Part shown: piece after piece, positions 1,070-52,093 of the stretch
Position numbering within the stretch: the stretch's first letter is position 1
Layout: each line of letters starts with the position of its first letter
From: Escarpia spicata
Lineage: Eukaryota > Annelida > Polychaeta > Sabellida > Siboglinidae
Assembly: GCA_963995525.1 (NCBI GenBank)
Contig: CAXEFP010000915.1
Location: 62,001-126,000, forward strand
Direction: 5' to 3'
DNA: 64,000 bases
Notes under the pieces: generated by a model
The model's database searches: none
Seen by the model: only the letters and a program-made list of their open reading frames with translations
Told to the model about the DNA's origin: nothing
Position numbers and translations under genes: made by a program

Positions 1070-2030
1070 CAACTGTCCTGTGTGTGTGTCTGTTCTTACA
1101 ACTGCCCTGTGTATGTCTGTCCTTACAACTGCCCTGTGTGTGTCTGTCCTTACAACTGCTCTGTGTGTGTCTGTCCTTACAACTGCCCTGTGTGTGTCTG
1201 TCCTTACAACTGTGTCACTGTCGTGTGTCACTGTTGCATGGCTGTTGTGTGTCACTGATGTGTGTGACTGTCTTGTGTCACTGTCATGTGTCTGTCCTTA
1301 CAACTATCCTGTCTGTGTCTGTCCTTACAATTGCGATGTGTGTGTCTGTCCTTACAACTGTGTCACTGTTGTATGGCTGTCGTGTGTCACTGATGTGTGT
1401 GACTGTCTTGTGTCACTGTCATGTATCACTGTCATGTGTCTGTCCTTACAACTGTCCTGTGTGTGTCTGTTCTTACAACTGTCCTGTGTGTGTCTGTCCT
1501 TACAATTGCTCTGTGTGTGTGTCTGTCCTTACAACTGCCCTGTGTATGTCCTTGCAACTATCAAGTGTGTGTCTGTCCTTACAACTGTCCTGTGTGTGTG
1601 TCTGTTCTTACAACTGCCCTGTGTGTGTCTGTCCTTACAACTGCTTGTGTGTGTCTGTCCTTACAACTGTCCTGTGTGTGTCTGTCCTTACAACTGTCCT
1701 GTGTGTGTCTGTCCTTACAACTGTCCTGTATGTGTCTGTCCTTATAACTATCCTGTGTGTGTCTGTCCTTACAACTGCCCTGTGTGTGTCTCCTTACAAC
1801 TGTCCTGTGTGTGTCTATCCTTACAACTGTCCTGTGTGTGTCTGTCCTTACAACTATCCTGTGTGTGTCTGTCCTCACAACTGCCCTGTGTGTGTCTCCT
1901 TACAACTGTCCTGTGTGTGTCTGTCCTTACAACTGCCCTGTGTGTGTCTCCTTACAACTGTCCTGTGTGTGTCTGTCCTTACAACTGTCCTGTGTGTGTC
2001 TGTCCTTACAACTGTCCTGTGTGTGCCGCG
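1070..2030. repeat. Minisatellite of about 27 bp, GT-rich, abutting the E1 acceptor
   Basis: About 35 imperfect copies with core TGTCCTTACAACTGTCC plus a GTGTGT stretch. The array stops 4 bases before the AG of the first recognised exon, so it supplies the whole pyrimidine/GT-rich run-in to that splice site. The long frames across it on both strands are repeat artefacts. Confidence 0.9.
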
Positions 2031-2034
2031 ACAG

Positions 2035-2169
2035 TTCAACCGAGTGTGAGTGGTCTCCTCGACTTTGACTACCCAAGCTTAGCCGACCCAAAGATTGGCC
2101 TTGGCTCTGTGAAGGAACTTGGTGACATCCGAAGAGTGCCACTGCCGGTGGAACTTGTCGAACAGTTTG
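2035..2169 (+). CDS. NUP155: NUP155 E1 (first recognised exon)
   Basis: Starts after GCGACAG with two bases completing a codon from an unseen upstream exon; ends TTTG|GTCGTA (phase 1). Encodes the segment before the propeller: [11 protein letters not shown], then [14 protein letters not shown], the most conserved N-terminal motif of the family. About residues 1-45 of the recovered protein. Confidence 0.9.
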
Positions 2170-8100: not shown

Positions 8101-11100
8101 GTTCCTCTTGGTTCGGGCTACCCCAGTCGACATTGTCCTCCTTGGTGTCAGCTTTAGCAAGCAAGTGGAAGGTTGGTTCAGGTTTCTATCAAACATTGTC
8201 CTCCTTGGTGTCAGCTTTAGCAAGCAAGTGGAAGGTTGGTTCAGGTTTCTATCAAACATTGTCCTCCTTGGTGTCAGCTTTAGCAAGCAAGTGGAAGGTT
8301 GGTTCAGGTTTCTATCAAACATTGTCCTCCTTGGTGTCAGCTTTAGCAAGCAAGTGGAAGGTTGGTTCTGGTTTCTATCAAACATTGTCCTCCTTGGTGT
8401 CAGCTTTAGCAAGCAAGTGGAAGGTTGGTTCAGGTTTCTATCAAACATTGTCCTCCTTGGTGTCAGCTTTAGCATGCAAGTGGAAGGTTGGTTCAGGTTT
8501 CTATCAAACATTGTCCTCCTTGGTGTCAGCTTTAGCAAGCAAGTGGAAGGTTGGTTCAGGTTTCTATCAAACATTGTCCTCCTTGGTGTCAGCTTTAGCA
8601 AGCAAGTGGAAGGTTGGTTCAGGTTTCTATCAAACATTGTCCTCCTTGGTGTCAGCTTTAGCAAGCAAGTGGAAGGTTGGTTCTGGTTTCTATCAAACAT
8701 TGTCCTCCTTTGTGTCAGCTTTAGCAAGCAAGTGGAAGGTTGGTTCTGGTTTCTATCAAACATTGTCCTCCTTGGTGTCAGCTTTAGCAAGCAAGCAAGT
8801 GGAAGGTTGGTTCAGGTTTCTATCAAACATTGTCCTCGGTGTCAGCTTTAGCAAGCAAGTGGAATGTTGGTTCTGGTTTCTATCAAACATTGTCCTCCTT
8901 GGTGTCAGCTTTAGCAAGCAAGTGGAAGGTTGGTTCTGGTTTCTATCAAACATTGTCCTCCTTGGTGTCAGCTTTAGCAAGCAAGTGGAAGGTTGGTTCA
9001 GGTTTCTATCAAGCATTGTCCTCCTTGGTGTCAGCTTTAGCAAGCAAGTGGAAGGTTGGTTCTTGTTTCTATCAAACATTGACCTCCTTGGTGTCAGCTT
9101 TAGCAAGCAAGTGGAATGTTGGTTCTGGTTTCTGTCAAACATTGTCCTCCTTGGTGTCAGCTTTAGCAAGCAAGTGGAAGGTTGGTTCAGGTTTCTATCA
9201 AACATTGTCCTCCTTGGTGTCAGCTTTAGCAAGCAAGTGGAAGGTTGGTTCTGGTTTCTATCAAACATTGTCCTCCTTGGTGTCAGCTTTAGCAAGCAAG
9301 TGGAAGGTTGGTTCAGGTTTCTATCAAACATTGTCCTCCTTGGTGTCAGCTTTAGCAAGCAAGTGGAAGGTTGGTTCAGGTTTCTATCAAACATTGTCCT
9401 CCTTGGTGTCAGCTTTAGCAAGCAAGTGGAAGGTTGGTTCTGGTTTCTATCAAACATTGTCATCTGAAACTTTGTCAGTGCGCTAAGTCATAATGTATAT
9501 ACAAAAGTGTTTGAATGCTCTAATGATATTCTACATTGATTGTTCTGATGTCAATGTTTGTGTAATTGTTTGCTTTCATTCCTGAAATATTTATGGTTTT
9601 GTGCATTGTTAATGTGATTGTTTCACTTCTGAAAAAGTTGGGTGTGTTTCTATTTTAAATTATGGTAATTTAATTTATTTGTTAACGTCTCTGTCAATTT
9701 CACATCTTCCAGGGTCATCCTTTGGGGAGATGCATCTGCTTCCCGAGCCTCTGTTCACTGTACCAACAGACAACATACACGTCCTGAACATCACAGGCTC
9801 AGACAATGGCAGAGTCTTCATGTCAAGCAAAGATGGCTGCCTCTACGAGCTCGCTTATCAGGTAAGTATTCAAGGTTCGTTCACCGGTACAGGCACAGTT
9901 CCATTTGTAAACATTCATTCACCTGCATAGGGACAGTTCCATTTGTAAACATTTGTAAACATTCGTTCACTTGCATAGTGACAGTTCCATTTGTAAACAT
10001 TTGTAAACATTCGTTCACCTGCATAGGGACAGTTCCATTTGTAAACATTCGTTCACCTGCATAGGGACAGTTCCAATTGTAATCATTGCTTCACCTGCAT
10101 AGGGACAGTTCCATTTGTAAACATTCGTTCATCTGCATAGGGACAGTTCCATTTGTAAACATTCGTTCACCTGCATAGGGACAGTTCCATATGTAAACAT
10201 TCATTCACTTGCATAGGGACAGTTCCATTTGTAAACTTCCGTTCACCTGCATAGGGACAGTTCCAACTGTAATCATTGCTTCTCCTGCATAGGGACAGTT
10301 CCATTTGTAAACATTCGTTCACCTGCATAGTGACAGTTCCATTTGTAAACATTCGTTCACCTGCATAGGGACAGTTCCATATGTAAACATTCATTCACTT
10401 GCATAGGGACAGTTCCATTTGTAAACTTCCGTTCACCTGCATAGGGACAGTTCCAATTGTAATCATTGCTTCACCTGCGTAGGGACAGTTCCATTTGTAA
10501 ACATTCATTCACCTGCATAGGGACAGTTCCATTTGTAAACATTCGTTCACCTGCATAAGGATAGTTCCAATTGTAATCATTGCTTCACCTGCTTAGGGAC
10601 AGTTCCATTTGTAAACATTCGTTCACCTGCATAGGGACAGTTCCAATTGTAATCATTGCTTCACCTGCATAGGGACAGTTCCATTTGTAAACATTCGTTC
10701 ACCTGCATAGGGACAGTTCTATTTGTAAACATTCGTTCACTTGCATAGTGACAGTTCCATTTGTAAACATTCATTCACTTGCATAGGGACAGTTTCATTT
10801 GTAAACATTTGTTCACTTGCATAGGGACAGTTCCATTTGTAAACGTTCGTTCACTTGCATAGGGACAGTTCCATTTGTAAACATTCGTTCACTTGCATAG
10901 TGAGTTCTATTTGTAAACATTCGTTTACCTGCATAGTGACAGTTCCATTTGTAAACATTCGTTCACCTGCATAGGGACAGTTCCATTTGTAAACATTCGT
11001 TCATCTGCATAGGGACAGTTCCAATTGTAATCATTGCTTCATCTGCATAGGGACAGTTCCATTTTTAAACATTCGTTCACCTGCATAGGGACAGTTCCAT

Positions 11101-44100: not shown

Positions 44101-47100
44101 TACTTCTCATAGACTTCTTAAAACTGGAGTAAGATAAATGTAATTCTATAGATATGGTGCTTTTTGACCTTCAATCAGTTGAAATTGGTGGTACCTTATT
44201 GAAACCGATGACTGTCACATGTGGTGTACCTCAAGGGTTAATTCTCGGACCCTTACTGTTTCTAATATATATTAATGATATTTCATCGGCTGTTCGCTTC
44301 AAACTTCTTTTGTACGCTGACAATTTGGCCCTCATAGTTTCGGGTAAGAACACCCAACACATCCAAGAAAGTGTCTCTTCGGAGCTTGAGGCAGCCAGAG
44401 AATGGCTGATAAATAACAAACTGTCCCTCCATTTAGGCAAAACTGAATCAATTCTTTTTGGATAAAAACGTAAACTGCACACATGCAACTCCATCCAGGT
44501 GAAATGTGCTGGCAACACATTGACGTGTCAGACGCATGTTAAATACCTTTAATGTTAAGTACCTCGGTGTAGAGTTAGATCAGTCATTAACTGGAGGAGT
44601 GGCTGAGAAGATAATTTGTAAATCAAATGCTAAGTTAACATTCTTGTACAGGCAAACAAGAAATGTCAACATGAAAACAAAAACACTTCTTACCTCTGTC
44701 TTAATACAATGTCATTTTGACTATGCCTGTTCATCATGGTTCTCGGGTTTAACCAAGAAATATAAAACTAGACTACAGTGCACCCAGAACAAGGTAATCC
44801 GTTTCCTTCTTAATGCACCAGCCAGAACCCACATTGGATCAACAGAGTTTAGACAGGTCAACATGTTACCAGTGGATCTACGGGTTAAGCAACTAAAATT
44901 GAACCTTGTCTATAATATTGTCAATGACAGAGCACCGATTTATTTGTCCGATTCTTTCAACGTAACACGCAAGCAGCATGGTATAAATACAAGATTTAGT
45001 ACTTTGTCTCTTCATGTGACGTATGTTAAATCTTTCGGTCAAACTTCTTTTTACTACACAGACATGGAATGAATTGCCATATAACATACAAGGTGCTACG
45101 AACAAGAACCAATTTAAACATTTAGTCAAACAGTTTTTGTTCAATTACCTTAATGATCATTAAGCCAGCACAGTTTACTTTTAATTCATCGTATTTTTGA
45201 GGGACATGTATTTTATGTTTCATTTTTTATTGATTACGCATCTTTTGTAAAAAGTGTTTAATTTAAAAACTGGTATGTATTTGTAGTACATGAGTAGGTT
45301 TTTCAAATGACTTAATAATGCTTATAATCAGGAGGTAATATCCCTCCCTTAATATTACAATTATCAATGTCTTTTGACATCTGAACAGTAACTAGTATTT
45401 GTTTATTATTGTTGTTTTAGTCTGTTATTTTGTCATATTCTATTAATATATGTCTCATGTATTTGTCTGTGTCTGTCCAAGGACCACAATGGAGACAAGT
45501 GCTGCACTTTCTTGTGTCATCCTTTATATTTAATGTAACCTGTATTTATATTTTATGTGTACAAGCTGACACTTTATATGGAATAAATCAATCAATAGTT
45601 GTTCATGGTCATTGTGACTTTGTGTTGTAGTTGTTCATGGTCATTGTGACTTTGTTTTGTAATTGTTCATAGTCATTGTGATTTTGTTTTGTAGTTATTC
45701 ATAGTCATTGTGATTTTGTCTTGTAGTTGTTCAAAGACGTTGCAGCCGAGTTAGACCTGCCGACTGTGTGTAACCAGTTCGCGGCGGTTGGCTTCTACTC
45801 TGGCATCGTGGAATTGACATTGACTGCATCAAAGAAGAGAGACCTGCAGTGTTGGGGCTGCACTTCTACAAGAATGGGGAGCCACCCACTGACTCACAGG
45901 GCCTCATTGCCTACAGCAACAGGTGAACTAACCTTAAGCCTCTCACTCCCAGGGCCTCATTGCCTACAGCAACAGGGGAACTAACCTTAACCCTCTCACT
46001 CCCAGGGCTTCATTGCCTACAGCAACAGGTGACCTAACCTTAACCCTCTCACTCCCAGGGCCTCATTGCCTACAGCAACAGGTGAACTAACCTTAACCCT
46101 CTCATACTCAGGGCATCATTGTCTACAGCAACAGGTGACCTAACCTTAACCCTTTCACTCCCAGGGCCTCATTGTCTACACCAACAGGTGAAGTAACCTT
46201 AACCCTTTCACTCCCAGGGCCTCATTGTCTACACCAACAGGTGAAGTAACCTTAACCCTCTCACTCCCAGGGCCTCAGTGCCTTCAGCAACAGGTGAAGT
46301 AACCTTAATCCTCTCACAAGGCATATGACCACATTTTACCTACAGTATTGCCGAGGTGAAGAAGAGATGTGTTTGTTGACAGAATGGACTGCTACAAGTG
46401 TATCACGGAGACCCTCAACTACCTGCTGTCAGCCAGTCAGTCCCACCCCCACGCCCCCAGCGTACCCAAGCTGCCCGGTCCACTGCAGGTCACTGACGAT
46501 CCCAACAGACTGGCCAACAGTTTGAGGACTTCACGAATGTGTGGTCCAGTCACCCTTGAGTCTTACCAAAAACATCCAGCTTCACCCCTTTGGGGCCCAA
46601 CAAAACCTCCACTTACACCCCTGAGGCTTAACAAAACACCAAACTGCATCCTCCTAAGGTTCAACAAAACCTCCAAGTGCATCCCTTTTGATGCCAAGAT
46701 AGAGGGGCATACACACGATCAGCCCTGGTTATTGTCTCGTTTTCTACTCTACCTTGCCCAGTACTCTTTGCAAGACCCACTTTCTGTTTCCGTCCTTGTG
46801 CTTAGTAACTCTTCTCTTGTTTTGTAGAACATCTTCACCCGTATGTGCATTGAGTTGCATGAAACATTTCTGTTGTGTTTAGTCAGAGGAAGTATTCCGC
46901 CTCTCGTTGAGGTCTGATGACGAGCTCTTCCACGTGGCCCTCTATGACTGGCTCATCAACAAGAATCTCTCTGAGAAGTTACTTGAAGTGAGTTCACTTT
47001 AAGATACCAACAACAGTCTGAGAAGTTATTTTAGGTGAGTTCACTTTCAGATATCAACAAGAGTCTCTGAGAAGTTACTTGAGGTGAGTGCACTTTCAGA

Positions 47101-50100
47101 TATCAACAAGAGTCTTTGAGAAGTTACTTGAGGTGAGTTCACTTTCAGATATCAACAAGTCTCTGAGAAGTTACTTGATGTTAGTTCACTTTCAGATATC
47201 AACAAGACTCTCTGAGAAGTTACTTGAGGTGAGTTCACTTTCAGATATGAACAAGAGTCTCTGAGAAGTTACTTGAGGTGAATTCATTTTCAGATATTCC
47301 CATTAGTACTTCTTTCATACTGTCTTAATTTGTTTGTCAAATAAACCATTTTGACAAATCTAATAATAAAATTAAGAATGTTTTCAATTGCAGTTTAGCA
47401 AGACTGGAGTTTATATACCAGTGCAGGTTTAGAAAAAGACCCAATCATCCAGTGTTGTAAGCATAGACTGTGTCTGATGACTCATCATCAGCTCATAAAA
47501 CCCAATCATCCAGTGTTGTAAGCATAGACTCTGTGCCTTATGACTCATCATCAGCTCATAAGACCCAATCATCCAGCGTTGCAAGCATAGACTGTGCCTG
47601 ATGACTCATCATCAGCTCATAAGACACAATCATCCAGTGTTATAAGCATAGACTATGTGCCTGATGACTCATCATCAGCTCATAAGATCTAATCATCCAG
47701 TGTTGTAAGCATACACTGTGTGTCTGATGACTCATCATCAGCTCATAAGACCCAATCATCCAGTGTTGCAAGCATAGACTGTGCCTGATGACTCATCATC
47801 AGCTCATAAGACCCAATCATCCAGTGTTATAAGCATAGACTATGTGCCTGATGACTCATCATCAGCTCATAAGATCTAATCATCCAGTGTTGTAAGCATA
47901 CACTGTGTGTCTGATGACTCATCATCAGCTCATAAGACCCAATCATCCAGTGTTGTAAGCATAGACTCTATGCCTTATGACTCATCATCAGCTCATAAGA
48001 CCCAATCATCCAGTGCTGTAAGCATAGACTCTGTGCCTTATGACTCATCATCAGCTCATAAGACCCAATCATCCAGTGATATAAGCATAGACTATGTGCC
48101 TGATGACTCATCATCAGCACATAAGACCTAATCATCCAGTGATATAAGCATAGACTATGTGTCTGATCATTCATCATGAGCGCATAAACCCGATTTTCTC
48201 TTTAAAATTGATTTCTTATGTACTGAACATTTTCAACACCAGGACGCCGCACCGGAACATTTTAGCTGGTGCATCATGGAAATATTGTCCTCAGTGATGC
48301 AGCGGTGGCTTTTTCATAATGGAATAGGCTCCTAAATTTATTAAGGGATTCTGTTTACCGGTTGATTATGAGCCTTAGTAGTGAAACAGCCCTTTGGACT
48401 GACGCACAACAAAGGGCACGGGGGGGGGGTTTCGTGCTACCCCATGTACAAATGATCTTTTATGGTTGGTCTGATGTGCCAAAAGGGTTAGTTTTAGGGA
48501 TAGTGTTTGGTTGAAGGCTAGGGTGAAGTTTAAGTTCTGTTGACAAGATTGACATCAGATGTATACATGCATTTGTACGTGTAACAAATAGCCATCTGTG
48601 TGATGTGAAGGGTGTTTGTCACAGATCCAGTCGCCCTACCTGGAGGACTACCTGAAGCGTGCTGCGTCCCTACACCCCGACAACCTGGCTATTCTCGACC
48701 TGCTGTGGCGCTACTACGAGAAGTCCAAGAACTACTCAGCTGCTGCACGCATCCTCGCAAAGCTGGCTGAGAGACGCAGGTACGTGGCGTGACAGTTGTC
48801 ATAATTGTCACAAAGTTACCTGAGACACAGGTACGTGTCATGACAGCTGTCATACATTGTCACCAAGTTACCTGATTCACAGGTATGTGTTATGACAGGT
48901 GTCATACATTGTCACCAAATTACCTGACACACAGGTATGTGTTGTGACAGGTGTCATACATTGTCTCCAAGTTAGCTGACATACAGGTACTTGTTATGAC
49001 AGGTGTCATACATTGTGTCTCCGAGTTACCTGAGACACAGGTACGTGTCATGACAGGTGTCATACATTGTCTCCAAGTTACCTGAGACACAGGTACGTGT
49101 CATGACAGGTGTAATACATTGTCACCAAGTTACCTGAGAGACAGGTACATGTCACGACCGGTGTCATACATTGCCACCAAGTTACTTGACTCATAGGTAC
49201 TGGTATGTGTTTGTCACAAATTTTACACTTTACGCTAGATTGCCTTGTTTATGTTTGGTATAACGCACCCTAGCGAATACGCGGGACACTAACCACATAA
49301 ACAAACTCGATTTCCCCTCGATTATCACCCACCAAAGCACCGGCTTTGGCCTGCGACTAACTTCCTCAAATACACTTTCTCTGACTACCGTTTATCTACA
49401 GCTGTTTCTTAATATATGTCTATGGATAGTTTATGAATAATATTTATAAAATGACAATACTTGTCTCTTGAATCTTTCCAAATATTTTCGAAAATTTCTG
49501 CACCAATATCCACAATGATCCAAGCCCAAGATTTTCCTGCCAACTAAAATCAATTTGTTTAAATATCTCTTGGGAGAATTTGTGAAATGCTTCTTATTGG
49601 CAGACATTATTTTGTTTATAAAACTGAATGAGGAAGGTAAGCTAAAACTGGTTTGAATAAATTTCCAGTTTTCCTGGTTATCAGAAACGATTTGGTTTGA
49701 TTAAAGTGTCTTATAAAACTTTCATGTAAGAATGGTGGCCTTGCAGCATGGATGTCAACCTTGGGCAGCGTATTGAATATCTCTCGCGGGCAGCCATGTG
49801 TGCTAAAAGTTCAACGTTACGCACAACTTCAGCAGTAGAAGGCGAATTTCTTCATGAACTTGAAAAGAAAATGGAGGTAGGTTTTGTAGGAAATCATGAA
49901 CTTACAGGGGTGTGCACCCATTTTCTTTGGTTTCTGTGGTTCCTGAGTTCTGCCATCTCAGCAGACATGACTTGGCAAGTGATTTATGCATCTCACATAC
50001 GAGCAACAGGCTACCAGAACACTGTAAACATCTGATAGTTTAAGTGGACTTTTCAATGTTGTTTCATCACCAAGCTTTGAATATAGTATGATATTGGTAA

Positions 50101-52093
50101 AAATTTAAACACAATGATGGATTCAACAGTCAAGGTTGGCATTGAGATCACTGCCACGGCGTTGGATGCTGCTAACAGGGGGTGTACGCTAATTACGGCA
50201 TGTACACTTAATAGAACGAATACAGTATTATGACACCATTATATCTATACACTGTGATGACTTTCATAGTGAAAGATACCTGTTTTGAAATATACTTCAA
50301 ATATTAGAATTTTAAAGTACGTCACAGTTTTATGGAAAGATGTGATACAAAAAGAAAACTGTATCATCCATAATTCGTAACTGCGACACTTTATAGACAA
50401 TAAAAAGCTAAGGTAATACAACCACCTTACAATTATGGTCATCTCAGTAATACAACCACCTTACAATTATGGTCATCTCAGTAATACAACCACCTTACAA
50501 TTATGGTCATCTCAGTAATACAACCAGCTTACAATTATGGTCACCTCAGTAATACAACCACCTTACAATTATGGTCATCTCAGTAATACAACCACCTTAC
50601 AATTATGGTCATCTCAGTAATACAACCACCTTACAATTATAGTCACCTCAGTAATACAACCACCTTACAATTATGGTCATCTCAGTAATACAACCACCTT
50701 ACAATTATGGTCATCTCAGTAATACAACCACCTTACAATTATGGTCACCTCAGTAATACAACCACCTTACAATTATGGTCATCTCAGTAATACAACCACC
50801 TTACAATTATGGTCATCTCAGTAATACAACCACCTTACAATTATAGTCACCTCAGTAATACAACCACCTTACAATTATGGTCATCTCAGTAATACAACCA
50901 CCCTACAATTATGGTCATCTCAGTAATACAACCACCTTACAATTATGGTCACCTCAGTAATTCAACCACCTTACAATTATGGTCATCTCAGTAATACAAC
51001 CACCTTACAATTATGGTCACCTCAGTAATACAACCACCTTACAATTATGGTCATCTCAGTAATACAACCACCTTACAATTATAGTCACCTCAGTAATACA
51101 ACCACCTTACAATTATGGTCATCTCAGTAATACAACCAACTTACAATTATGGTCATCTCAGTAATACAACCACCTTACAGTTATGGTCACCTCAGTAATA
51201 CAACCACCTTACAGTTATGATCACCTCAGCAATACAACCACCTTACAATTATGGTCACCCCAGTAATACAACCACCATACAAGTATGGTCACCTCAGTAA
51301 TAAAACCGCCTTACAATTATGGTCACCTCAGTAATACAGCCGCCTTACAATTATGGTCACCTCAGTAATACAACCACCTTACAATTATGGTTACCTCAGT
51401 AATACAACCACCGTACAATTAGAGTCACCTCAGTAATAGAGCCACCTTACAATTATGGTTACCTCAGTAATACAGCCACCTTACAATTATGGTCACCCTG
51501 GGACAGTCACACATGACTTCTGTAAACGTAAAGTATAGGGTATTAGTCCCACTAAAATGGTTACCTTATTGCTCAGGTAATTTTGGCCCCGTCCTGAGGC
51601 TGACAATGATAGTGAGATTTCACCCTATAATTTGAACGTCTGTGACAATTTAATATTAATCAATTAAATATACTTCAATATGAATTGTCTTTGCATTGTA
51701 AATTGCAGCTGGCTAGCTGCAGAGATGTGTTTGATGTTGGATATGGCAGCAATCCCGTTGTAAATCTTTGTTGATGATGTAGGGGGCAGCGACCCAATTG
51801 TAGATCTTTGATATATGTAGCAGCAATCCCGTTGTAAATCTTTGTTGATGGGGTAGGGAGCAGTGACCTAATTGTAGATCTTTGTTTGATGTTGTATGTG
51901 GCAGCAATACTATTATAAATCTTTGTTGAAGGTGTAGGGGGGCAGTGACCCAATTGTAGATCTTTCATTGATGTTGTAGGTGGCAGCGATCCAGCTGCAG
52001 ATCTTTGAGTTGTTGTCAAAGCAGTCAGCCAAGAGTTCTGAGTTGAGTGATGCTCTTGCCCAGCTGAATGCTGAGTTGGTCAACATCACCTCC
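2035..52093 (+). CDS. NUP155: NUP155 (nuclear pore complex scaffold nucleoporin), 30 exons, both ends missing
   Basis: Thirty exons in order on one strand reproduce the NUP155/Nup154 family from just before the conserved RRVPLP.ELVEQF motif to the C-terminal third of the solenoid. NUP155 is a structural inner-ring (Nup93 subcomplex) nucleoporin: an N-terminal seven-bladed beta-propeller (E1 to about E12) followed by an alpha-solenoid (from about E13), needed for pore assembly at the nuclear envelope. Diagnostic stretches include [12 protein letters not shown] (E3), TDN..DNGR.F..KDGCLYE (E5), [18 protein letters not shown] (E14), YSGKHNGLC (E17), [10 protein letters not shown] (E21), DLLWRYYEK (E28) and GEFLHELE (E29). 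Intron phases match across the joins except as noted for E12, E25 and E26/E27. About 1,090 residues are present against roughly 1,390 in vertebrates. The first exon(s) and about 270 C-terminal residues were not found. Confidence 0.95.
2497..2593 (+). CDS. NUP155: NUP155 E2
   Basis: Acceptor TGTGACAG, donor GATGG|GTATGT (phase 2). Encodes [20 protein letters not shown] then [12 protein letters not shown], the first propeller strands with the family's D-SDIF-WN signature. Follows a 327-bp intron that is one of the few without an array. Confidence 0.92.
2655..3117. repeat. 24-bp minisatellite in intron 2
   Basis: About 19 copies of a 24-bp unit with core ATCATGAATCAGCTGGTTCA, beginning about 60 bp after the E2 donor. 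No similarity to the neighbouring exon ends is visible. Confidence 0.9.
3146..5897. repeat. 33-bp satellite-like array with higher-order structure (about 83 copies)
   Basis: Unit core TGTACTGTATCATGAGACGT plus GAGAATAGATGTT; occasional 34-bp units carry an extra T. Variants (ATATGAG, CACGAG, CGTTAG, GATAT) recur in the same order at about 3743, 4141, 4410 and 4873, so blocks of 8-14 units were themselves duplicated. Largest array in the window (2.75 kb). The 33-bp period keeps frames open on both strands; these are not genes. Confidence 0.95.
5898..6884. other. Unique AT-rich part of intron 2
   Basis: No exon of NUP155 is expected or seen between E2 and E3. It begins with a motif (TTTACAATAACAATTATCAC) that recurs in the degenerate repeat further right, so it may be an insertion that split that repeat. 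Confidence 0.35.
6885..7265. repeat. Degenerate AT-rich tandem repeat of about 80 bp, about 5 copies
   Basis: Recurring core ATCATGATTTTA followed by GTAACA.TTATTACAC and a TGTA.AATAAAAT segment. The copies are diverged, so this is older than the neighbouring 33-bp array. Confidence 0.6.
7385..7455 (+). CDS. NUP155: NUP155 E3
   Basis: Acceptor TTTGCAG, donor CCTG|GTGGGT (phase 1). Encodes [20 protein letters not shown] followed by PKPG, nearly identical to vertebrate NUP155. The last 9 exon bases plus 18 intron bases recur 82 bp downstream. Confidence 0.95.
7447..7555 (+). repeat. Two-copy duplication spanning the E3 5' splice site
   Basis: A 27-bp sequence, CAAAGCCTG|GTGGGTGCCTA plus GACTTTC, occurs at 7447-7473 across the real exon end and identically at 7529-7555. 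This is the smallest splice-junction repeat in the locus. A stop codon before the second copy prevents in-frame use. Confidence 0.85.
7556..8078. other. Intron 3, with a possible SINE/LINE tail
   Basis: Mostly unique. TGTAAAGCACTTTGAGC at about 7817-7834 resembles the GTAAAGCGCTTTGAG-type 3' tail of L2/CR1 LINEs and their partner SINEs, so part of the intron may be an old insertion. Confidence 0.3.
8079..8171 (+). CDS. NUP155: NUP155 E4
   Basis: Acceptor TTTGCAG, first donor GGAAG|GTTGGT (phase 1). Encodes [20 protein letters not shown] followed by [12 protein letters not shown] (propeller blade). The last 46 exon bases are the seed of the array that follows. Choosing the first donor gives the length expected for the family; later in-frame donors would insert multiples of 21 residues. 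Confidence 0.92.
8126..9466. repeat. 63-bp minisatellite spanning the E4 5' splice site (about 21 copies)
   Basis: Each unit holds the last 46 bases of E4, the donor GAAG|GTTGGT and 17 intron bases. Donors recur at exactly 63-base steps (8171, 8234, ... 8738); a +4 insertion near 8790 then breaks the frame and a stop follows at 8849-8851. Copies are over 95% alike. Since 63 is a multiple of 3, the first ten donors are all phase-equivalent. Confidence 0.97.
9713..9861 (+). CDS. NUP155: NUP155 E5
   Basis: Acceptor CTTCCAG, donor TATCAG|GTAAGT (phase 0, strong). Encodes [16 protein letters not shown], then [20 protein letters not shown], the most conserved propeller segment of NUP155. Confidence 0.97.
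9880..11160. repeat. Minisatellite of about 38 bp at the start of intron 5
   Basis: About 34 copies, core GGGACAGTTCCATTTGTAAA then CATTCGTTCACCTGCATA. It starts about 20 bp after the E5 donor. The unit's GTAAACATTC resembles the donor GTAAGTATTC with the same following GTTCACC, so it may be a diverged splice-site-derived array; that part is uncertain. Confidence 0.92.
11451..11550. repeat. 18-bp minisatellite, left part
   Basis: Units of GAGGACAGTTGTTTAGGA, interrupted on the right by an inverted-repeat element and continuing at 11989. Confidence 0.85.
11551..11988. mobile_element. Fold-back MITE inserted in the 18-bp array
   Basis: Starts GGCACTTGTGTAGAATC and ends with its reverse complement. 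The two halves stay complementary (with mismatches) for about 200 bases each, so the 438-bp element could fold into one long hairpin. It is flanked on both sides by GAGGACAG, which would be an 8-bp target duplication (hAT-like) but is also the array unit, so this cannot be decided. It encodes nothing. Confidence 0.8.
11989..12558. repeat. 18-bp minisatellite, right part
   Basis: Continuation of the GAGGACAGTTGTTTAGGA array after the MITE, about 32 units with insertions of T and substitutions. Confidence 0.9.
12690..12995. repeat. 21-bp minisatellite abutting the E6 acceptor
   Basis: Units of TGTTATCTGTATACTATTAT(G), some with a 5-bp addition. The last unit runs into ATGATGTTGTAG, the acceptor of E6, so the array supplies the branch-point region. 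Confidence 0.88.
13003..13108 (+). CDS. NUP155: NUP155 E6
   Basis: Acceptor GTTGTAG, donor GATGATG|GTATGC (phase 1). Encodes [20 protein letters not shown] then [15 protein letters not shown]; the GWFS..CRKINHS motif is diagnostic of the NUP155 propeller. The final TGATGATG is the seed of the following 40-bp array. Confidence 0.96.
13101..15155. repeat. 40-bp minisatellite spanning the E6 5' splice site (about 51 copies)
   Basis: Unit: TGATGATG (last 8 exon bases) | GTATGCACAATG plus TTCTTACTCA.TAACTTTGT. Every unit repeats the exon end and donor. The donor position varies between GTATGC, GTACGC, GCACGC and GCATGC: copies nearer the exon are mostly GC, those further right mostly GT. The unit length is not a multiple of 3. 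Confidence 0.97.
15335..15408 (+). CDS. NUP155: NUP155 E7
   Basis: Acceptor TTTTCCAG, donor ATTCAG|GTACAA (phase 0). Encodes [20 protein letters not shown] followed by KGTIQ, a canonical propeller blade. Confidence 0.96.
15409..16389. other. Intron 7, no array
   Basis: Unique sequence. GGGATGAGA at about 15740 has a weak inverted match near 16190, which could mark an old non-autonomous element of about 460 bp; not convincing. Confidence 0.3.
16390..16481 (+). CDS. NUP155: NUP155 E8
   Basis: Acceptor CATGACAG, donor GGCCAG|GTGAGT (phase 2). Encodes [20 protein letters not shown] then [10 protein letters not shown], matching the family's YDLG.DG.GM segment. Confidence 0.93.
16695..17356. repeat. 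GTGTGTC-type low-complexity array before E9
   Basis: Units of 10-12 bases, TGTGTGTC(C/T) with ATG/CGTG variants. It ends about 45 bp before the E9 acceptor. Frames on both strands are artefacts of the simple sequence. Confidence 0.9.
17403..17500 (+). CDS. NUP155: NUP155 E9
   Basis: Acceptor TTCCATAG, donor CACTG|GTGAGT (phase 1). Encodes [20 protein letters not shown] followed by [14 protein letters not shown]. Matches the RTID.S.FKPIV motif. Confidence 0.95.
17501..17849. other. Intron 9
   Basis: 349 bp of unique AT-rich sequence; nothing recognised. Confidence 0.5.
17850..17999 (+). CDS. NUP155: NUP155 E10
   Basis: Acceptor GTTTGCAG, donor GGAAGG|GTATGG (phase 1). Encodes [20 protein letters not shown], then [14 protein letters not shown] and the [13 protein letters not shown] end, all recognisable NUP155 propeller sequence. 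Confidence 0.97.
18000..18837. other. First part of intron 10
   Basis: Unique AT-rich sequence without recognisable exon, element or array. Confidence 0.4.
18838..19432. repeat. 28-bp minisatellite in intron 10 (21 copies)
   Basis: Highly homogeneous units, core CTTACCTTGTGTGGCCCTGT then ATAACAAT, differing mainly at one GG/TT/GA position. Each unit carries CTTACCTTGTG, which on the minus strand reads as a strong donor; no plus-strand splice role is apparent. Confidence 0.95.
19497..20108. repeat. Array carrying the E11 3' splice site, left block
   Basis: Irregular 28-57 bp units such as GTAGCCTGTGTCAC(C/T) followed by TTGGTGGTGA or CAGAGACCATGTTG. The latter copies the real junction GTGTCACCAG|GGACCCTGTTG of E11. 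Roughly 20 units. The block stops at an insertion. Confidence 0.85.
20109..21162. mobile_element. Insertion splitting the E11 acceptor array (possible hAT-like element)
   Basis: 1.05 kb of unrelated sequence between two blocks of the same array. Its right end reads on the minus strand CAGGGTTGGCACGTTTTTCC, typical of hAT-type ends. Near both ends are inverted motifs around TACCGGTATTTACC. The left border is unclear and no transposase is seen. Confidence 0.45.
21163..21539. repeat. Array carrying the E11 3' splice site, right block
   Basis: Units of 28-45 bp ending in TGTGTCAC(C)AG|GGACCATGTTGTTG, i.e. the acceptor and first bases of E11, repeated up to the genuine one at 21539. Variants have TGTCAACAG|GAAACATGTTG. 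Confidence 0.88.
21540..21640 (+). CDS. NUP155: NUP155 E11
   Basis: Acceptor TGTCACCAG, donor ACACAC|GTGAGT (phase 0). Encodes [20 protein letters not shown] followed by [14 protein letters not shown], matching the GILLMA...D.DILW..N...FPFQ pattern. Phase requires this acceptor rather than the GGCAG nine codons in. Confidence 0.92.
21641..22299. other. First part of intron 11
   Basis: Unique sequence, no exon or recognised element. Confidence 0.4.
22300..23255. repeat. 41-bp acceptor-like minisatellite upstream of E12 (about 23 copies)
   Basis: Unit core CTTGTGTGTAG|GAAGAGGTC then CAGGTCAGAGTCTGGATGT. Each unit resembles the E12 acceptor region CTTGTAG|GAAGTGATG..CCAGGGTC, so it appears to be an older, diverged amplification of the same 3' splice site. 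Confidence 0.92.
23256..23535 (-). mobile_element. tRNA-derived SINE, minus strand
   Basis: Read on the minus strand it begins GCGCAGTAGCACAGCTGTAA (A-box region), has a B box GGTTCAAATCC at about 23473-23483, then a body of about 200 bp and a tail GTGTAAAGCGCTTGGAG. This is the order of a Pol III SINE with an L2/CR1-like tail. Its head has been captured in the 68-bp array at the E12 acceptor. Confidence 0.8.
23506..23981. repeat. 68-bp array: SINE head + E12 acceptor + start of E12 (7 acceptors)
   Basis: Acceptor TCTTGTAG|GAAGTGATG occurs at exact 68-base steps: exon-like starts at 23552, 23620, 23688, 23756, 23824, 23892 and the genuine 23960. Each unit holds the first 22 bases of E12, about 29 bases of the SINE head (minus-strand A box) and 17 bases of intron. 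Exon and SINE are joined at a shared GTC. Copies are almost identical, so the expansion is recent. Confidence 0.96.
23960..24122 (+). CDS. NUP155: NUP155 E12 (contains a +1 frameshift in a C run)
   Basis: Acceptor CTTGTAG (seventh of the array), donor TCACAG|GTGAGG (phase 0). The incoming frame gives [16 protein letters not shown], matching the family's DG..WAL segment; the outgoing frame gives [20 protein letters not shown], matching PVVVQQH..PPKKFVLLSAQ. The two frames differ by one base, best placed in the C6 run at 24059-24064. The exon is 163 bases, one more than the flanking phases allow. This is either an assembly error or a true frameshift. Confidence 0.88.
24114..25142. repeat. 29-bp minisatellite spanning the E12 5' splice site (about 35 copies)
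   Basis: Unit: AACTCACAG (last 9 exon bases) | GTGAGGGGATC plus ATTGTCCTT. Each copy has a near-consensus donor CAG|GTGAGG. Because the unit also ends in a pyrimidine-rich stretch, each copy has the form Yn-CAG|GTGAGG of a zero-length-exon recursive site. Some copies lack a G or have ATAG/ATG variants; a block of about 420 bp is duplicated (24230-24620 and 24710-24980 share variants). Confidence 0.95.
25333..25440 (+). CDS. NUP155: NUP155 E13
   Basis: Acceptor CCTCTGCAG, donor CCACCGG|GTAGGT (phase 0). Encodes [20 protein letters not shown] then [12 protein letters not shown], the propeller-to-solenoid transition (family motif RPVDQLR.LL). The frame stays open through the whole following array to 27915 if the intron is retained. 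Confidence 0.96.
25448..27893. repeat. 18-bp C-rich minisatellite filling most of intron 13 (2.4 kb)
   Basis: Units CATCCACACCCTCTCCCT(C) with 12-, 18- and 24-bp variants (AACCACACCCTCATGCAC), starting 7 bases after the E13 donor. The right-hand 350 bp is nearly perfect; the left is a mosaic. The 864-codon frame continuous with E13 is a consequence of the period being a multiple of 6. Confidence 0.95.
27894..28361. other. Unique part of intron 13
   Basis: No exon recognised; a short CAATGGTCCTCAT repeat (4 copies) at about 28108-28162. Confidence 0.4.
28362..28452. repeat. 16-bp minisatellite before E14
   Basis: About six copies of CTCCACACCTCCATGC, pyrimidine-rich, 60 bp upstream of the E14 acceptor. 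Confidence 0.85.
28512..28571 (+). CDS. NUP155: NUP155 E14
   Basis: Acceptor TTTGTAG, donor AAAGAG|GTGGGT (phase 0). Encodes exactly 20 residues, [20 protein letters not shown], the best-conserved helix pair at the start of the solenoid. Confidence 0.97.
28942..29066. repeat. 26-bp minisatellite in intron 14
   Basis: Five copies of CACCATCGTCATGCCTGATT + GATGTT. Confidence 0.85.
29205..30050. mobile_element. Non-autonomous DNA transposon with inverted CGTGTATAATACGC ends
   Basis: CGTGTATAATACGC near 29220 recurs inverted near 30015, and TGTATAATATGCACCCC-AACTTTTGAG subterminal repeats lie inside both ends. About 0.8 kb, filling most of intron 14. No intact transposase frame; the family was not identified. 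Confidence 0.55.
30222..30315 (+). CDS. NUP155: NUP155 E15
   Basis: Acceptor GTTCACAG, donor ATGTATA|GTGAGT (phase 1). Encodes [20 protein letters not shown] then [20 protein letters not shown] is the family motif. The GTGAGT donor is chosen because it gives the phase that E16 needs. Confidence 0.93.
30452..31217. repeat. 45-bp minisatellite in intron 15 (17 copies)
   Basis: Unit core GAGCTGATAAAAATGTTAGT then GAGATGGTCCCCAGAGCATTCTTAT. ATGTTAGTGAGATG in the unit resembles the E15 junction ATGTATA|GTGAGTGA, but the array begins 137 bp after the donor, so derivation from the splice site is uncertain. Confidence 0.92.
31516..31572 (+). CDS. NUP155: NUP155 E16
   Basis: Acceptor GACTTGCAG, donor AGGAG|GTGAAT (phase 1). 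Encodes [18 protein letters not shown], the low-complexity loop with an F.GTP-like element that precedes the conserved YSGKHNG block. Confidence 0.82.
31604..32130. repeat. 35/19-bp array carrying the E17 3' splice-site region
   Basis: Units TTTGACCGGTGTGTGTCTGTAG|GTCATG with longer and shorter forms, about 17 TAG|GT sites. The genuine junction is TTTGACCGGTGTGTCTAG|GTGAGTTT. Each unit is an acceptor directly followed by GT. Confidence 0.88.
32139..32292 (+). CDS. NUP155: NUP155 E17
   Basis: Acceptor GTGTCTAG, first donor CTCAG|GTGTGT (phase 2). Encodes [20 protein letters not shown], then [20 protein letters not shown] followed by LR. YSGKHNG.C.Y.SRI is a hallmark of NUP155. Flanked on both sides by splice-site arrays. 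The last 20 bases (CTCTCTCGCATTCTCAG) seed the downstream array. Confidence 0.96.
32272..33188. repeat. 36-bp minisatellite spanning the E17 5' splice site (about 25 copies)
   Basis: Unit: CTCTCGCATTCTCAG | GTGTGTTAAGTATCTCTGGG(T). Exon tail and donor are copied every 36 bases with almost no divergence. Being 12 codons long, all donors are in the same frame, and the frame from E17 stays open through the whole array ([12 protein letters not shown] repeated). The pyrimidine tract before each CAG|GT also makes it a plausible acceptor. Confidence 0.97.
33189..34185. repeat. 46-bp minisatellite spanning the E18 3' splice site (about 22 copies)
   Basis: Unit: TTGTTGTTGCCAG | GCCACTGTGGGG plus TGTGTTCTGTCCTGACTGTAC. 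Acceptor and first 12 bases of E18 recur every 46-47 bases up to the genuine junction at 34172. It joins the preceding 36-bp array without any unique sequence. Some copies have CTAG, TCAG or CAAG at the AG. Confidence 0.97.
34173..34233 (+). CDS. NUP155: NUP155 E18
   Basis: Last acceptor of the 46-bp array, donor AAATAT|GTAAGT (phase 0). With the AG of E17 it gives [20 protein letters not shown] then Y, continuing SRILRPLW as in invertebrate NUP155 proteins. Only this copy of the exon start is followed by coding sequence. Confidence 0.88.
34234..34927. other. First part of intron 18
   Basis: Unique. Several TTTTTCGTTTTC and inverted GAAAAACGAAA motifs at 34460-34650 suggest a small inverted-repeat element; borders not determined. 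Confidence 0.35.
34928..36424. repeat. 24-bp minisatellite derived from the E19 3' splice site (about 60 copies)
   Basis: Unit TTCTTTCTGTCACCAACTAA + TGAG. The true junction reads TTTTCTGTCCTCAG|CTGATGAGTC, and units at about 34937 and 35560 still have TCCTCAGCTGAT(A/G)AG; most have lost the AG (CACCAACTGATGAG). It contains an inverted block at 35643-35712. Confidence 0.93.
35551..35712. repeat. 70-bp inverted repeat inside the 24-bp array
   Basis: 35551-35620 and 35643-35712 are reverse complements at roughly 90% identity with a 22-base loop. The array runs forward, is inverted for about three units, then resumes forward. Confidence 0.88.
36425..36535 (+). CDS. NUP155: NUP155 E19
   Basis: Acceptor CTGTCCTCAG, donor GGAAAG|GTATTG (phase 0). 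Encodes [20 protein letters not shown] then [17 protein letters not shown], matching the QLLE.VL.EL..L.EFLDRN helix. Confidence 0.92.
36755..37558. mobile_element. Pogo/Tigger-like DNA transposon remnant
   Basis: Ends are inverted: CAGGGCAACACGCTTATA on the left, and CAGTGCAACACGCTTATAAC on the minus strand at the right, with TA outside the right end. On the plus strand 37094-37172 reads a short frame ending [15 protein letters not shown], the kind of C-terminal tail seen in pogo/CENP-B-type transposases. About 804 bp, internally deleted. Confidence 0.6.
37663..37723 (+). CDS. NUP155: NUP155 E20
   Basis: Acceptor CACCACCAG (preceded by TTGCTGTGTTTTGTAG, a stronger AG whose phase would not fit), donor ATCAAG|GTAAGT (phase 1). 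Encodes [20 protein letters not shown], corresponding to the QQ.LQRKF region. The start is the least certain part; the reading frame is fixed by E21. Confidence 0.75.
37724..38105. other. Intron 20
   Basis: 382 bp, unique, nothing recognised. Confidence 0.5.
38106..38239 (+). CDS. NUP155: NUP155 E21
   Basis: Acceptor TTTTTGTAG, donor AGCGCG|GTTGGT (phase 0). Encodes [20 protein letters not shown] followed by [29 protein letters not shown] is a family hallmark. Confidence 0.96.
38353..38722. repeat. Minisatellite of about 34 bp in intron 21
   Basis: About 12 copies, core GTGCTGTGTACTTATATATT then G(A/G)TTGTGTTATGCT. No similarity to E21 or E22 edges. Confidence 0.9.
38985..39237. repeat. Minisatellite of about 27 bp in intron 21
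   Basis: About nine copies, core ATGGTCATGATACAGGGGTG then TTGTTACT. Confidence 0.88.
39427..39486 (+). CDS. NUP155: NUP155 E22
   Basis: Acceptor CCATTGTAG, donor CGCGAG|GTAGGC (phase 0). Encodes [20 protein letters not shown], matching QE.LK..TFKDLVI..KE. Confidence 0.92.
39487..39892. other. First part of intron 22
   Basis: Unique sequence; part (about 39660-39860) resembles 11330-11420 and 22090-22260 (CACCTTTTACCTAGCAA, TGAAAACATGT, GAACATT..ATGCGGGAATG), so a dispersed repeat family is likely. Confidence 0.4.
39893..40500. repeat. 22-bp minisatellite in intron 22 (about 28 copies)
   Basis: Core AGGTTGACGGAGGTCACGCA + CT, with GGTTGGTGGAGG and GACAGTGG variants interspersed. Confidence 0.93.
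40640..41041. repeat. Minisatellite of about 17 bp abutting the E23 acceptor
   Basis: Core CTTGTGACATTGTGTGA. The last unit leads into TTGTGACATTGTTACAG, the E23 acceptor, so the 3' splice-site context lies within the repeat. Confidence 0.88.
41046..41177 (+). CDS. NUP155: NUP155 E23
   Basis: Acceptor ATTGTTACAG, donor TCCAAG|GTAGGG (phase 0). Encodes [20 protein letters not shown], then [25 protein letters not shown]...CP.LYS..DAICSK is diagnostic. Confidence 0.97.
41196..41885. repeat. 690-bp CTT/CTTC homopyrimidine tract
   Basis: Almost pure C/T on the plus strand (units CTTCTTCTCCTT and similar), starting about 18 bases after the E23 donor. It is the kind of mirror-symmetric polypyrimidine able to form H-DNA. 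The frames on both strands (Ser/Pro-rich, Glu/Arg-rich) are artefacts. Confidence 0.95.
41886..42107. repeat. 23-bp minisatellite before E24
   Basis: About nine copies of GTCAGCTCCGGTGTGGAGCA + CCT, ending about 28 bp before the E24 acceptor; the last copy ends CACCTGTTCCAG, itself acceptor-like. Confidence 0.9.
42135..42212 (+). CDS. NUP155: NUP155 E24
   Basis: Acceptor GGTGCTTTCAG, donor CTACAG|GTCAGT (phase 0). Encodes [20 protein letters not shown] then LQEALQ, corresponding to the ANELLQ.S......RE..L.ESL segment. Confidence 0.93.
42480..43010. repeat. Array of about 32 bp carrying the E25 3' splice site, left block
   Basis: Units TGACTTTGTCTTGTAG|TTGTTCATGG..., repeating the E25 junction TTTTGTCTTGTAG|TTGTTCAAAG. 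Left copies are diverged. It is cut by a LINE and resumes at 45599. Confidence 0.88.
43011..45596 (+). mobile_element. 5'-truncated CR1/L2-type LINE inserted in the E25 acceptor array
   Basis: Contains pre-RT sequence and reverse-transcriptase motifs in several frames: [20 protein letters not shown] near 43400, [20 protein letters not shown] at about 43550, [20 protein letters not shown] at 44222-44280, then LLYADN where the family has YADD, then [12 protein letters not shown] and the C-terminal [10 protein letters not shown] block to about 45150. It ends in an AATAAATCAATCAATAG tail. The part between DLQ and GVPQG is deleted, the frame is broken at several points and the catalytic second Asp is lost, so the copy is dead. 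No endonuclease domain is present. Confidence 0.9.
43634..44060 (+). repeat. 21-bp in-frame array inside the LINE reverse transcriptase (about 20 copies)
   Basis: Unit CTCCTATATGAGCAACATCA + G, encoding LLYEQHQ. In related LINEs a single LLYE.QSGFR follows this point; here it is repeated about 20 times before [15 protein letters not shown] resumes. Variants TATCAGCAACAC and GATCCTATA cluster to the right. Confidence 0.95.
45599..45740. repeat. Array of about 32 bp carrying the E25 3' splice site, right block
   Basis: Four units TTGTTCATGGTCATTGTGAC then TTTGTCTTGTAG, ending at the genuine acceptor 45726; E25 itself starts TTGTTCAAAGAC. Confidence 0.93.
45727..45922 (+). CDS. NUP155: NUP155 E25 (contains a -1 frameshift)
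   Basis: Acceptor GTCTTGTAG, first donor CAACAG|GTGAAC (phase 2). Encodes [38 protein letters not shown], then in the next frame [20 protein letters not shown] then AYSNR. The shift falls at the CC of GACCTGCAG (45841-45849), where one C is missing relative to the family's KKDP. Only with that base do the phases of E24 and E26 agree. Either an assembly error or a true lesion. Confidence 0.9.
45896..46320. repeat. 53-bp minisatellite spanning the E25 5' splice site (8 copies)
   Basis: Unit: GGCCTCATTGCCTACAGCAA CAG | GTGAACTAACCTTAACCCTC then TCACTCCCAG. It repeats the last 24 exon bases and the donor. Each unit also has TCTCACTCCCAG|GGCCTC, an acceptor-like site, so each copy looks like a 23-nt mini-exon with both splice sites. 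Confidence 0.95.
46383..46519 (+). CDS. NUP155: NUP155 E26 (3' boundary uncertain)
   Basis: Acceptor TTGTTGACAG. Encodes [20 protein letters not shown], then [11 protein letters not shown] and DDPNRLAN, matching SYKCITDTL and P..PGP..S.DPN.L.N. The donor is taken as AACA|GTTTGA because this gives the phase needed by E27 at 46887. It is weak; alternatives lie up to 46551, and a second frame there reads QFEDFTNVW. Confidence 0.82.
46520..46882. other. Intron 26
   Basis: About 365 bp; three degenerate copies of a repeat of about 37 bp around AACAAAACCTCCA at 46570-46690. Confidence 0.45.
46883..46987 (+). CDS. NUP155: NUP155 E27
   Basis: Acceptor TGTGTTTAG (or TTTAGTCAG, exon from 46887, which closes the phase with E26), donor CTTGAA|GTGAGT (phase 0). 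Encodes [20 protein letters not shown] then [15 protein letters not shown], matching S.RS.DELF..ALY.WLI....DKLL. Confidence 0.93.
46962..47295. repeat. 49-bp minisatellite spanning the E27 5' splice site (7 copies)
   Basis: Unit: TCTCTGAGAAGTTACTTGA(A/G) | GTGAGTTCACTTTCAGATAT then CAACAAGAG. It repeats the last 20 exon bases and a GTGAGT donor seven times. Confidence 0.95.
47448..48187. repeat. Minisatellite of about 62 bp in intron 27 (12 copies)
   Basis: Core CCCAATCATCCAGTGTTGTA then AGCATAGACT and GATGACTCATCATCAGCTCA. Blocks of four units are themselves repeated (47600-47760 and 47780-47930 share variants). Not similar to exon edges. Confidence 0.93.
48188..48624. other. End of intron 27
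   Basis: Unique, with a run of nine to ten G at 48420; nothing coding recognised. Confidence 0.4.
48625..48779 (+). CDS. NUP155: NUP155 E28
   Basis: Acceptor TTTGTCACAG, first donor ACGCAG|GTACGT (phase 2). Encodes [20 protein letters not shown], then [20 protein letters not shown] and [17 protein letters not shown] is invariant in the family. Confidence 0.97.
48761..49210. repeat. 52-bp minisatellite spanning the E28 5' splice site (8 copies)
   Basis: Unit: AAGTTACCTGAGACACAG | GTACGTGTCATGACAGGTGT then CATACATTGTCACC. The genuine junction is AAGCTGGCTGAGAGACGCAG|GTACGTGG. Diverged relative to the exon but the donor is kept. Confidence 0.92.
49211..49746. other. End of intron 28
   Basis: Unique; no exon or element recognised. 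Confidence 0.4.
49747..49876 (+). CDS. NUP155: NUP155 E29
   Basis: Acceptor GCCTTGCAG, donor ATGGAG|GTAGGT (phase 0). Encodes [40 protein letters not shown] then KKME; matches ..L.QRLEYI.RA...AKSS and [13 protein letters not shown]. Confidence 0.97.
49877..50406. other. First part of intron 29
   Basis: Unique; nothing recognised. Confidence 0.4.
50407..51500. repeat. 34-bp minisatellite in intron 29 (32 copies)
   Basis: Core AATACAACCACCTTACAATT then ATGGTCATCTCAGT. Homogeneous on the left, diverging from about 51170. A three-unit order (ATCT, ATCT, ACCT) recurs. Confidence 0.96.
51712..51985. repeat. Array carrying the E30 3' splice site (5-6 copies)
   Basis: Units of 45-65 bp: TTGATGTTGTAG|GTGGCAGCGATCC-like sequence then a diverged ..GTTGTAGATCTTTG. 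The genuine sequence at 51968-52005 is TTGATGTTGTAG|GTGGCAG followed by CGATCCAGCTGCAGATCTTTG. Each unit therefore holds the acceptor and about 30 bases of E30. Confidence 0.9.
51980..52093 (+). CDS. NUP155: NUP155 E30 (last recognised exon)
   Basis: Acceptor GATGTTGTAG, donor ACCTCC|GTGAGT (phase 0). Encodes [20 protein letters not shown] then [15 protein letters not shown], matching ARIQLQI.E.L...........D.V.QL..EL..IT. A further exon beginning near LY.EFADPF is expected but not present in the window. Confidence 0.95.

Follow-up and report, generated by a model that had tools for sequence, protein, structure and literature searches.

Why do so many splice junctions of a single gene lie inside tandem arrays whose repeated unit contains an exon edge, a splice site and an intron edge, and which of the repeated copies would the spliceosome use? 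The gene in question lies in a 64,000-nucleotide stretch of the genome of the annelid Escarpia spicata (hereafter the window), which corresponds to positions 62001-126000 of contig C742 in an assembly of 1.06 Gb and 1097 contigs. A first-pass annotation, made from the letters of the window, had pointed to a precedent for such arrays in amphioxus Adh. This precedent is genuine: the term ‘mirage’ was coined for amphioxus Adh3, followed by cases in globins, TnC and PGBD5, as described in the available text of these reports (PMC3087553, PMC3902484).

NUP155 and its junction-spanning arrays

The gene encodes NUP155: its joined exon translations match the human NUP155 chains of PDB 5a9q (E-value 9.9e-132). 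Twenty-nine exons were placed by tblastn with a human NUP155 query that agrees by eye with the stretches matched in 5a9q, and the exon translations were joined by hand for the PDB comparison. The donors of E4 and E20 were set by reading frame, the E4 donor being spanned under either choice. A tblastn search of the window with human NUP155 found no match to the C-terminal exons (the last ~200 residues). The resulting gene model is as follows:

2035..52093, + strand: NUP155-like gene, E1-E29, from the PDB 5a9q match and tblastn with human NUP155
2035-2172 and 51980-52093, + strand: terminal modeled exons, E1 and E29 respectively

This model provides 57 scorable junctions, namely 29 acceptors and 28 donors, with the E25 donor left out as it is deleted in the window. 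TRF returned 125 rows for the window and placed 50.6% of it in tandem repeats; these rows were split or merged by hand into 42 arrays in or beside NUP155. Within the introns, which total 46,840 nt, arrays make up 27,842 nt (59%). Based on TRF and the gene model, 13 of the 57 junctions (23%, as against the half first reported) are inside an array that reaches at least 7 nt into the exon. These are seven donors and six acceptors, and 12 of the 28 introns have at least one:

8130..9461, + strand: E4 donor mirage; exon end 8171; 63-bp unit, 21 copies; unit of 42 nt exon and 21 nt intron; exon overlap 42 nt
13100..15160, + strand: E6 donor mirage; exon end 13108; 40-bp unit, 51.5 copies; exon overlap 9 nt
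21164..21554, + strand: E11 acceptor mirage; exon start 21540; 39-bp unit, with related units at 19492-20110; exon overlap 15 nt
23503..23981, + strand: E12 acceptor mirage; exon start 23960; 68-bp unit, 7 copies; exon overlap 22 nt
24114..25148, + strand: E12 donor mirage; exon end 24122; 28-bp unit, 36.6 copies; exon overlap 9 nt
32277..33187, + strand: E17 donor mirage; exon end 32292; 36-bp unit, 25.4 copies; exon overlap 16 nt
33188..34189, + strand: E18 acceptor mirage; exon start 34173; 46-bp unit, 21.7 copies; exon overlap 17 nt
34955..36433, + strand: E19 acceptor mirage; exon start 36425; 24-bp unit, 60.9 copies; exon overlap 9 nt
42527..43010, + strand: distal part of the E24 acceptor array; motif TAGTTGTTCA in common with 45596-45733
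45596..45733, + strand: E24 acceptor mirage; exon start 45727; 32-bp unit, 4.3 copies; exon overlap 7 nt
45884..46317, + strand: E24 donor mirage; exon end 45922; 53-bp unit, 8.2 copies; exon overlap 39 nt
46955..47297, + strand: E26 donor mirage; exon end 46987; 49-bp unit, 7 copies; exon overlap 33 nt
48771..49201, + strand: E27 donor mirage; exon end 48779; 52-bp unit, 8.2 copies; exon overlap 9 nt
51731..52007, + strand: E29 acceptor mirage; exon start 51980; degenerate 40-41-bp unit; exon overlap 28 nt

At all 13 junctions the tandem unit consists of exon edge, splice site and intron edge, the arrangement by which a mirage is recognized, and the unit length of 24-68 bp, which agrees with the range first given, is that of a minisatellite. 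The units differ between arrays; hence, each array appears to have arisen independently from its own junction, as had been suggested. Intron 17 is entirely array, with the E17 donor mirage being directly followed by the E18 acceptor mirage. The E24 donor units resemble 23-nt pseudo-exons with AG and GT. The E24 acceptor array is split in two by a LINE-like insertion (43010-45596; RVT_1 in 44133-44462). This insertion has a 21-bp minisatellite of its own, with 20 copies in the window and 56 in the related locus on contig C4 described below. Eight further arrays stop short of a junction by 20 nt or less, at the acceptors of E1, E6, E17 and E22 and at the donors of E5, E13, E22 and E29:

1066..2025, + strand: array beside the E1 acceptor, ending 9 nt before the exon
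9876..11161, + strand: array beside the E5 donor, 14 nt after the exon; splice site outside the array
12691..12998, + strand: array beside the E6 acceptor, ending 4 nt before the exon
25446..27889, + strand: array beside the E13 donor, 5 nt after the exon
31607..32134, + strand: array beside the E17 acceptor, ending 4 nt before the exon
40644..41040, + strand: array beside the E22 acceptor, ending 5 nt before the exon
41198..41887, + strand: CTT-rich array with a 9-bp unit, 20 nt after the E22 donor
52109..53627, + strand: array beside the E29 donor, 15 nt after the exon

The first-pass annotation had named 15 junctions, and TRF together with the 29-exon model recovers 13 of them if its E25, E27, E28 and E30 are taken as our E24, E26, E27 and E29, a correspondence that we infer as it came with no coordinates for individual exons. 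The remaining two were not confirmed: the array at the E17 acceptor stops 4 nt short of the exon, and one of the donors called E3 and E4 equates with either E5, where the array does not begin until 14 nt into the intron, or E3, which has no array. An Rfam scan of the window and eight other loci gave no match.

Concentration of arrays at exon edges

As an array grows from one unit, our seeding null collapses each array to a single unit and drops it at random, with at least 7 intron nt for each (fewer for units of less than 8 bp). With all 42 arrays, the 13 spanning arrays compare with an expected mean of 2.48 and a maximum of 11 in 100,000 draws; the 21 arrays that span a junction or lie within 20 nt of one compare with a mean of 5.34 and a maximum of 17. 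A conservatively merged set of 34 arrays, which leaves out units shorter than 15 bp, same-family arrays that insertions have divided and the array that lies in the LINE, gives a comparable picture over 200,000 draws: 13 spanning arrays versus a mean of 2.17 and a maximum of 10, with no draw reaching 13, and 20 spanning or near a junction versus a mean of 4.49 and a maximum of 16. Even when seeds may fall no farther than 200 nt from an exon, the mean is 4.56 and a single draw in 20,000 reaches 13. The proposal that the junction arrays exceed chance is thus upheld, with 13 observed against 2.2-2.5 expected in the collapsed-gene nulls. The offsets of the array edges likewise cluster at the junction, with 20 of the 34 arrays falling between -15 and +42 nt. 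Seven of these 20 abut the exon without containing the splice dinucleotide, suggesting that arrays can be seeded by something other than the splice site itself.

Decoy splice sites within the arrays

Each copy in an array was aligned individually to the true unit, i.e. the one adjacent to the exon, as had been proposed in the annotation, and the decoys of most arrays retain the splice dinucleotide. On the donor side, GT is kept in 20/20 decoys at E4, 34/36 at E12, 24/24 at E17, 6/7 at E24, 6/6 at E26 and 7/7 at E27; the E6 decoys are divided between GT (29/51) and GC (22/51). On the acceptor side, AG is kept in 5/9 at E11, 6/6 at E12, 20/21 at E18, 2/3 at E24 and 3/6 at E29. These counts point to no general loss of splice signals in the decoys, with the clear exception of the E19 acceptor, where AG is found in only 3/60 (2/54 on C4). 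The dinucleotide pattern of the decoys on C4 is like that in the window.

Identity to the true unit drops clearly with distance only at E11, and slightly at the E24 donor; in most arrays the far units are as similar to the true site as the near ones. At the E4 and E17 donors, the 20 and 24 decoys are 97-100% identical to the true unit. Homology and reading frame are best read as indicating that the copy touching the exon body is the likely working splice site and that the rest are decoys. Units with a length that is a multiple of three are found in 4 of the 13 arrays, among them E4 (63 bp) and E17 (36 bp), where the frames are open for 240 and 334 codons, the open region at E17 extending from 32270 to 33271.

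A second NUP155 copy and changes in copy number

The C-terminal exons of NUP155 were found on contig C4 only (three candidates, all on C4, with E-values of 7e-12, 0.001 and 2.7). The minus strand of C4:275001-315000 holds E9-E29, with 24 mismatches and 8 gap positions over 2405 aligned nucleotides. All 11 mirages within this range are present, with an exon overlap identical to that in the window. Their TRF copy numbers (window/C4) differ in all 11 cases:

E11 acceptor: 6.1/7.2
E12 acceptor: 7.0/15.0
E12 donor: 36.6/16.3
E17 donor: 25.4/3.8
E18 acceptor: 21.7/50.3
E19 acceptor: 60.9/55.1
E24 acceptor: 4.3/13.3
E24 donor: 8.2/10.2
E26 donor: 7.0/13.0
E27 donor: 8.2/10.2
E29 acceptor: 7.0/6.3

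The copy number is thus unstable between C742 and C4, whether these are alleles or paralogs of a multi-copy segment, and at E11 and E29 the difference is no more than about one unit. In comparison with C4, the window has lost 1 nt in E24 (45727-45922), 5 nt in E12 (23960-24122) and 2 nt in E19 (36425-36535), and ~104 bp spanning the E25 end and donor are missing (46520). Judged from these lesions, the window NUP155 looks like a decaying copy. The C4 loci examined stop matching the window at the right end of the 52109..53627 array.

Searches with different parts of the window recover many relatives of this segment. Of the 46 protein matches scored (among 953 candidates), 44 are at E24, on ten large contigs and many small ones; each has stops within the matched stretch, and one of them is the C4 locus and none the window. 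With an 801-bp query from the right flank, at least 40 matches were obtained (the 40 scored of 127 candidates), all with 99-100% identity over the full length; the C4 NUP155 locus is absent among these best 40 of 127. An intron piece yields 50 matches (40 scored of 1489 candidates): seven, including the window, are full-length at 99-100%, and 24 of the 31 high-identity matches begin at window position 6252 with 98-99% identity. At one locus with this start (L029), the left flank differs from the window. By these matches, the large segment that includes the window gene is present in at least 40 dispersed copies; a NUP155-bearing segment of tens of kilobases has thus spread recently.

Four of the five same-strand loci match the window exactly in E3 and E4 and have the E4 array, and the fifth has apparently undergone an internal deletion; this comparison excludes L023 and L025, which are on the other strand. 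Among 24 copies, position 6252 of the window is separated from E24 by 32.1-48.4 kb, a figure that pools the arrays with other indels. In the underlying table, coordinates were entered by hand, C1:54.33 Mb was left out with its E24 match on the wrong side, C513 and C807 are without a scored E24 match, and the E24 position on C742 is that of the gene model. These many recent copies constitute a replicate set for the rate of array change.

Mirages in other genes of the genome

The first-pass annotation had framed the arrays as a process of one gene or locus, a view that needs to be widened: junction-spanning arrays are present in at least four other genes, namely those for clathrin heavy chain, an axonemal dynein, GTPBP10 and a coiled-coil protein. 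The clathrin heavy chain gene, which was picked as long and conserved, has 28 exon matches on contig C10; in a stretch of 5.9 kb with seven exons, a single array has a score of 100 or more, and it is an acceptor mirage that overlaps the exon by 17 nt. Additionally, 21 loci of 10 kb were surveyed on contig C1, one at its start and twenty at even steps, and five of them are minisatellite-rich, one (L017) with repeats of longer units; the distribution of such stretches is thus patchy. An axonemal dynein heavy chain (L015; best match DNAH3, E-value 1e-39) has four arrays, whose offsets from the junctions, counted by hand, are +19, -22, -5 and +1 nt; the first of these arrays spans its junction. 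In GTPBP10 (L019; E-value 2e-29), one intron has mirages at both ends with 34 nt between the arrays; these are the two arrays of the locus that were placed on exons, and a further five or more, each exceeding seven copies, are outside the count, as are the arrays of L008, which also stand outside the gene assignment. A coiled-coil gene (L020) has two donor mirages, with its exons drawn from reading frame and GT/AG alone; a Pfam search with its ORF gave no match. In one of its arrays two units read GAGAAAGGT and 23 read GAGAAATAT, and hence most decoys of that array are without GT.

Genome-wide, the pair pattern CAGGTAAGTN{15,45}CAGGTAAGT was found 395 times, versus 278 for the reversed motif. 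These matches are dominated by long arrays, and single arrays yield dozens of them among the first 100 places; thus, the pattern count says little about the number of arrays.

Relationship to known junction repeats

In the available text of the amphioxus reports, mirages are likewise tandem duplications across an intron-exon boundary, on the donor or the acceptor side, and many, though not all, of their units keep the splice signals. Their units are 10-72 bp in Adh3 and 150-160 bp in the globins, and the copy number of BflGb6 differs between haplotypes (6 and 3), as reported in PMC3087553; Adh3 is reported to show somatic length mosaicism, and splicing to be undisturbed (PMC3087553, PMC3902484). 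The annelid case differs in extent: as described there, BflGb6 and BflGb9 have one such junction each and PGBD5 has two repeats, whereas here NUP155 has 13 and at least four other genes have further ones, arrays reach 61 copies, one intron consists of nothing but mirages and the mitochondrial gene order is of annelid type.

Three other phenomena are related more distantly, going by the available text on each:
The variable internal tandem repeats of human segmental-duplication genes (PMC2812944): these are minisatellites at the exon-intron boundaries of recently duplicated genes, with ~30-bp units in ~4 copies, and 27 intron modifications are described. The repeats there are in exons and lead to new or alternative introns, whereas here it is the existing junctions that extend into the intron as repeats, in more copies and also in conserved genes not known as duplicated.
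The gain of introns from AG/GT proto-splice sites (PMC4974935, PMC3443670): this also involves tandem duplicates with splice sites, and the E24 units resemble its products in being like 23-nt exons. A new intron arises there, whereas existing junctions are multiplied here.
The intron-1 minisatellites of earthworm metallothionein genes (PMC12783039): these are also annelid, intronic and labile, but as described their units are without spanned splice sites.
Intronic minisatellites near alternative exons have also been reported from C. elegans (PMC4039745). Among the top-ranked results in the open-licence literature, we found no report of an annelid mirage. Hence, as far as the available text of these papers goes, the NUP155 arrays are a real and striking feature belonging to a known class, at a density above that of the described cases.

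Origin of the mirages

We propose that the minisatellites would be born by the tandem duplication of short stretches straddling exon-intron boundaries. Exon edges would be either the preferred place of the first duplication or the place where arrays survive longer, possibly because the end copy of an exon-touching array is under purifying selection. The arrays might then grow and shrink by slippage, unequal exchange or gene conversion. By exon definition, the spliceosome would use the copy fused to the exon body, and the decoys would leave with the intron. If intron length is nearly neutral in this genome, arrays could fill a whole intron, as in intron 17. We consider this account, taken as a whole, to be probable. 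A bolder version is more tentative, and we would not yet lean on it: exon-intron boundaries might be mutational hot spots for array birth in more than one animal phylum, perhaps via DNA structures coupled to transcription or splicing, with introns wholly rebuilt from multiplied junctions and the spliceosome picking among dozens of near-identical sites in many genes.

The most serious alternative is survival bias alone, wherein intronic tandem duplications arise everywhere and those at exon edges persist because their end copy cannot be lost. The combination of a fixed exon overlap with a labile copy number speaks for it, as does a clear fall of identity with distance only at E11. Against this, arrays without a splice dinucleotide are likewise concentrated at 15 nt or less from exons (7/20), so that nearby splice signals would have to anchor arrays too. 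It is a possibility to be reckoned with, if not one that we favor. That the arrays have a selected function, serving alternative splicing or variable protein repeats, could be read from the long open frames at E4 and E17, with their units in multiples of three, and from the alternative splicing and new introns reported for the boundary repeats of human segmental duplications in the available text of PMC2812944; however, just 4 of the 13 units are multiples of three, about the chance expectation, making such a function improbable. Tolerance of the arrays in a dead copy, to which the lesions in E24, E12, E19 and the E25 donor and the presence of at least 40 copies might point, is very unlikely, as the C4 locus, the sole place found with the C-terminal exons, has the same 11 mirages in E9-E29, and clathrin heavy chain, dynein and GTPBP10 have mirages too. 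Arrays covering 59% of the intron sequence would touch some junctions by chance, but this is scarcely credible as an explanation when 13 spanning arrays were never reached in 100,000 or 200,000 draws and the one array of the clathrin stretch with a score of 100 or more is junction-spanning as well. An assembly artefact, with repeats collapsed or inflated in one unplaced contig (C742) that has small exon indels relative to C4, can hardly be entertained given the same arrays and exon offsets on C4, the E4 array on four other copies, and arrays in other genes on C1 and C10.

So far, mirages have been described in a handful of amphioxus genes, and duplicated human genes provide a related case. Their dense occurrence in several conserved annelid genes makes both the choice of the spliceosome among near-identical sites and the seeding of minisatellites at exon edges testable.

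Additional features of the window and assembly

Positions 100-900 of the window are a high-copy dispersed repeat (2304 candidates, of which the 40 scored have 95-100% identity). An integrase core domain (rve, E-value 5e-11) on the minus strand at 62694-63083 probably marks an LTR retroelement at the right end of the window. Flank pieces recur two or three times on contig C659, ~108-118 kb apart. Two adjacent 51-bp arrays at L008:76-1017 look like reverse complements of each other. The locus L003:1-10000 (C1:6500001-6510000) has a GC content of 57.5%, versus ~41% at most sampled loci, and long ORFs on both strands; it may be a foreign or virus-like insert.

Contig C1097, read with the invertebrate mitochondrial code, has the order ND3-ND2-COX1-COX2-(short ORF)-COX3; the short ORF before COX3, which gave no Pfam match, was taken as ATP8. 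An ATP8 that adjoins COX3, apart from ATP6, is the annelid mitochondrial arrangement; amphioxus, with a genome about half as large as this one, has a different gene order.
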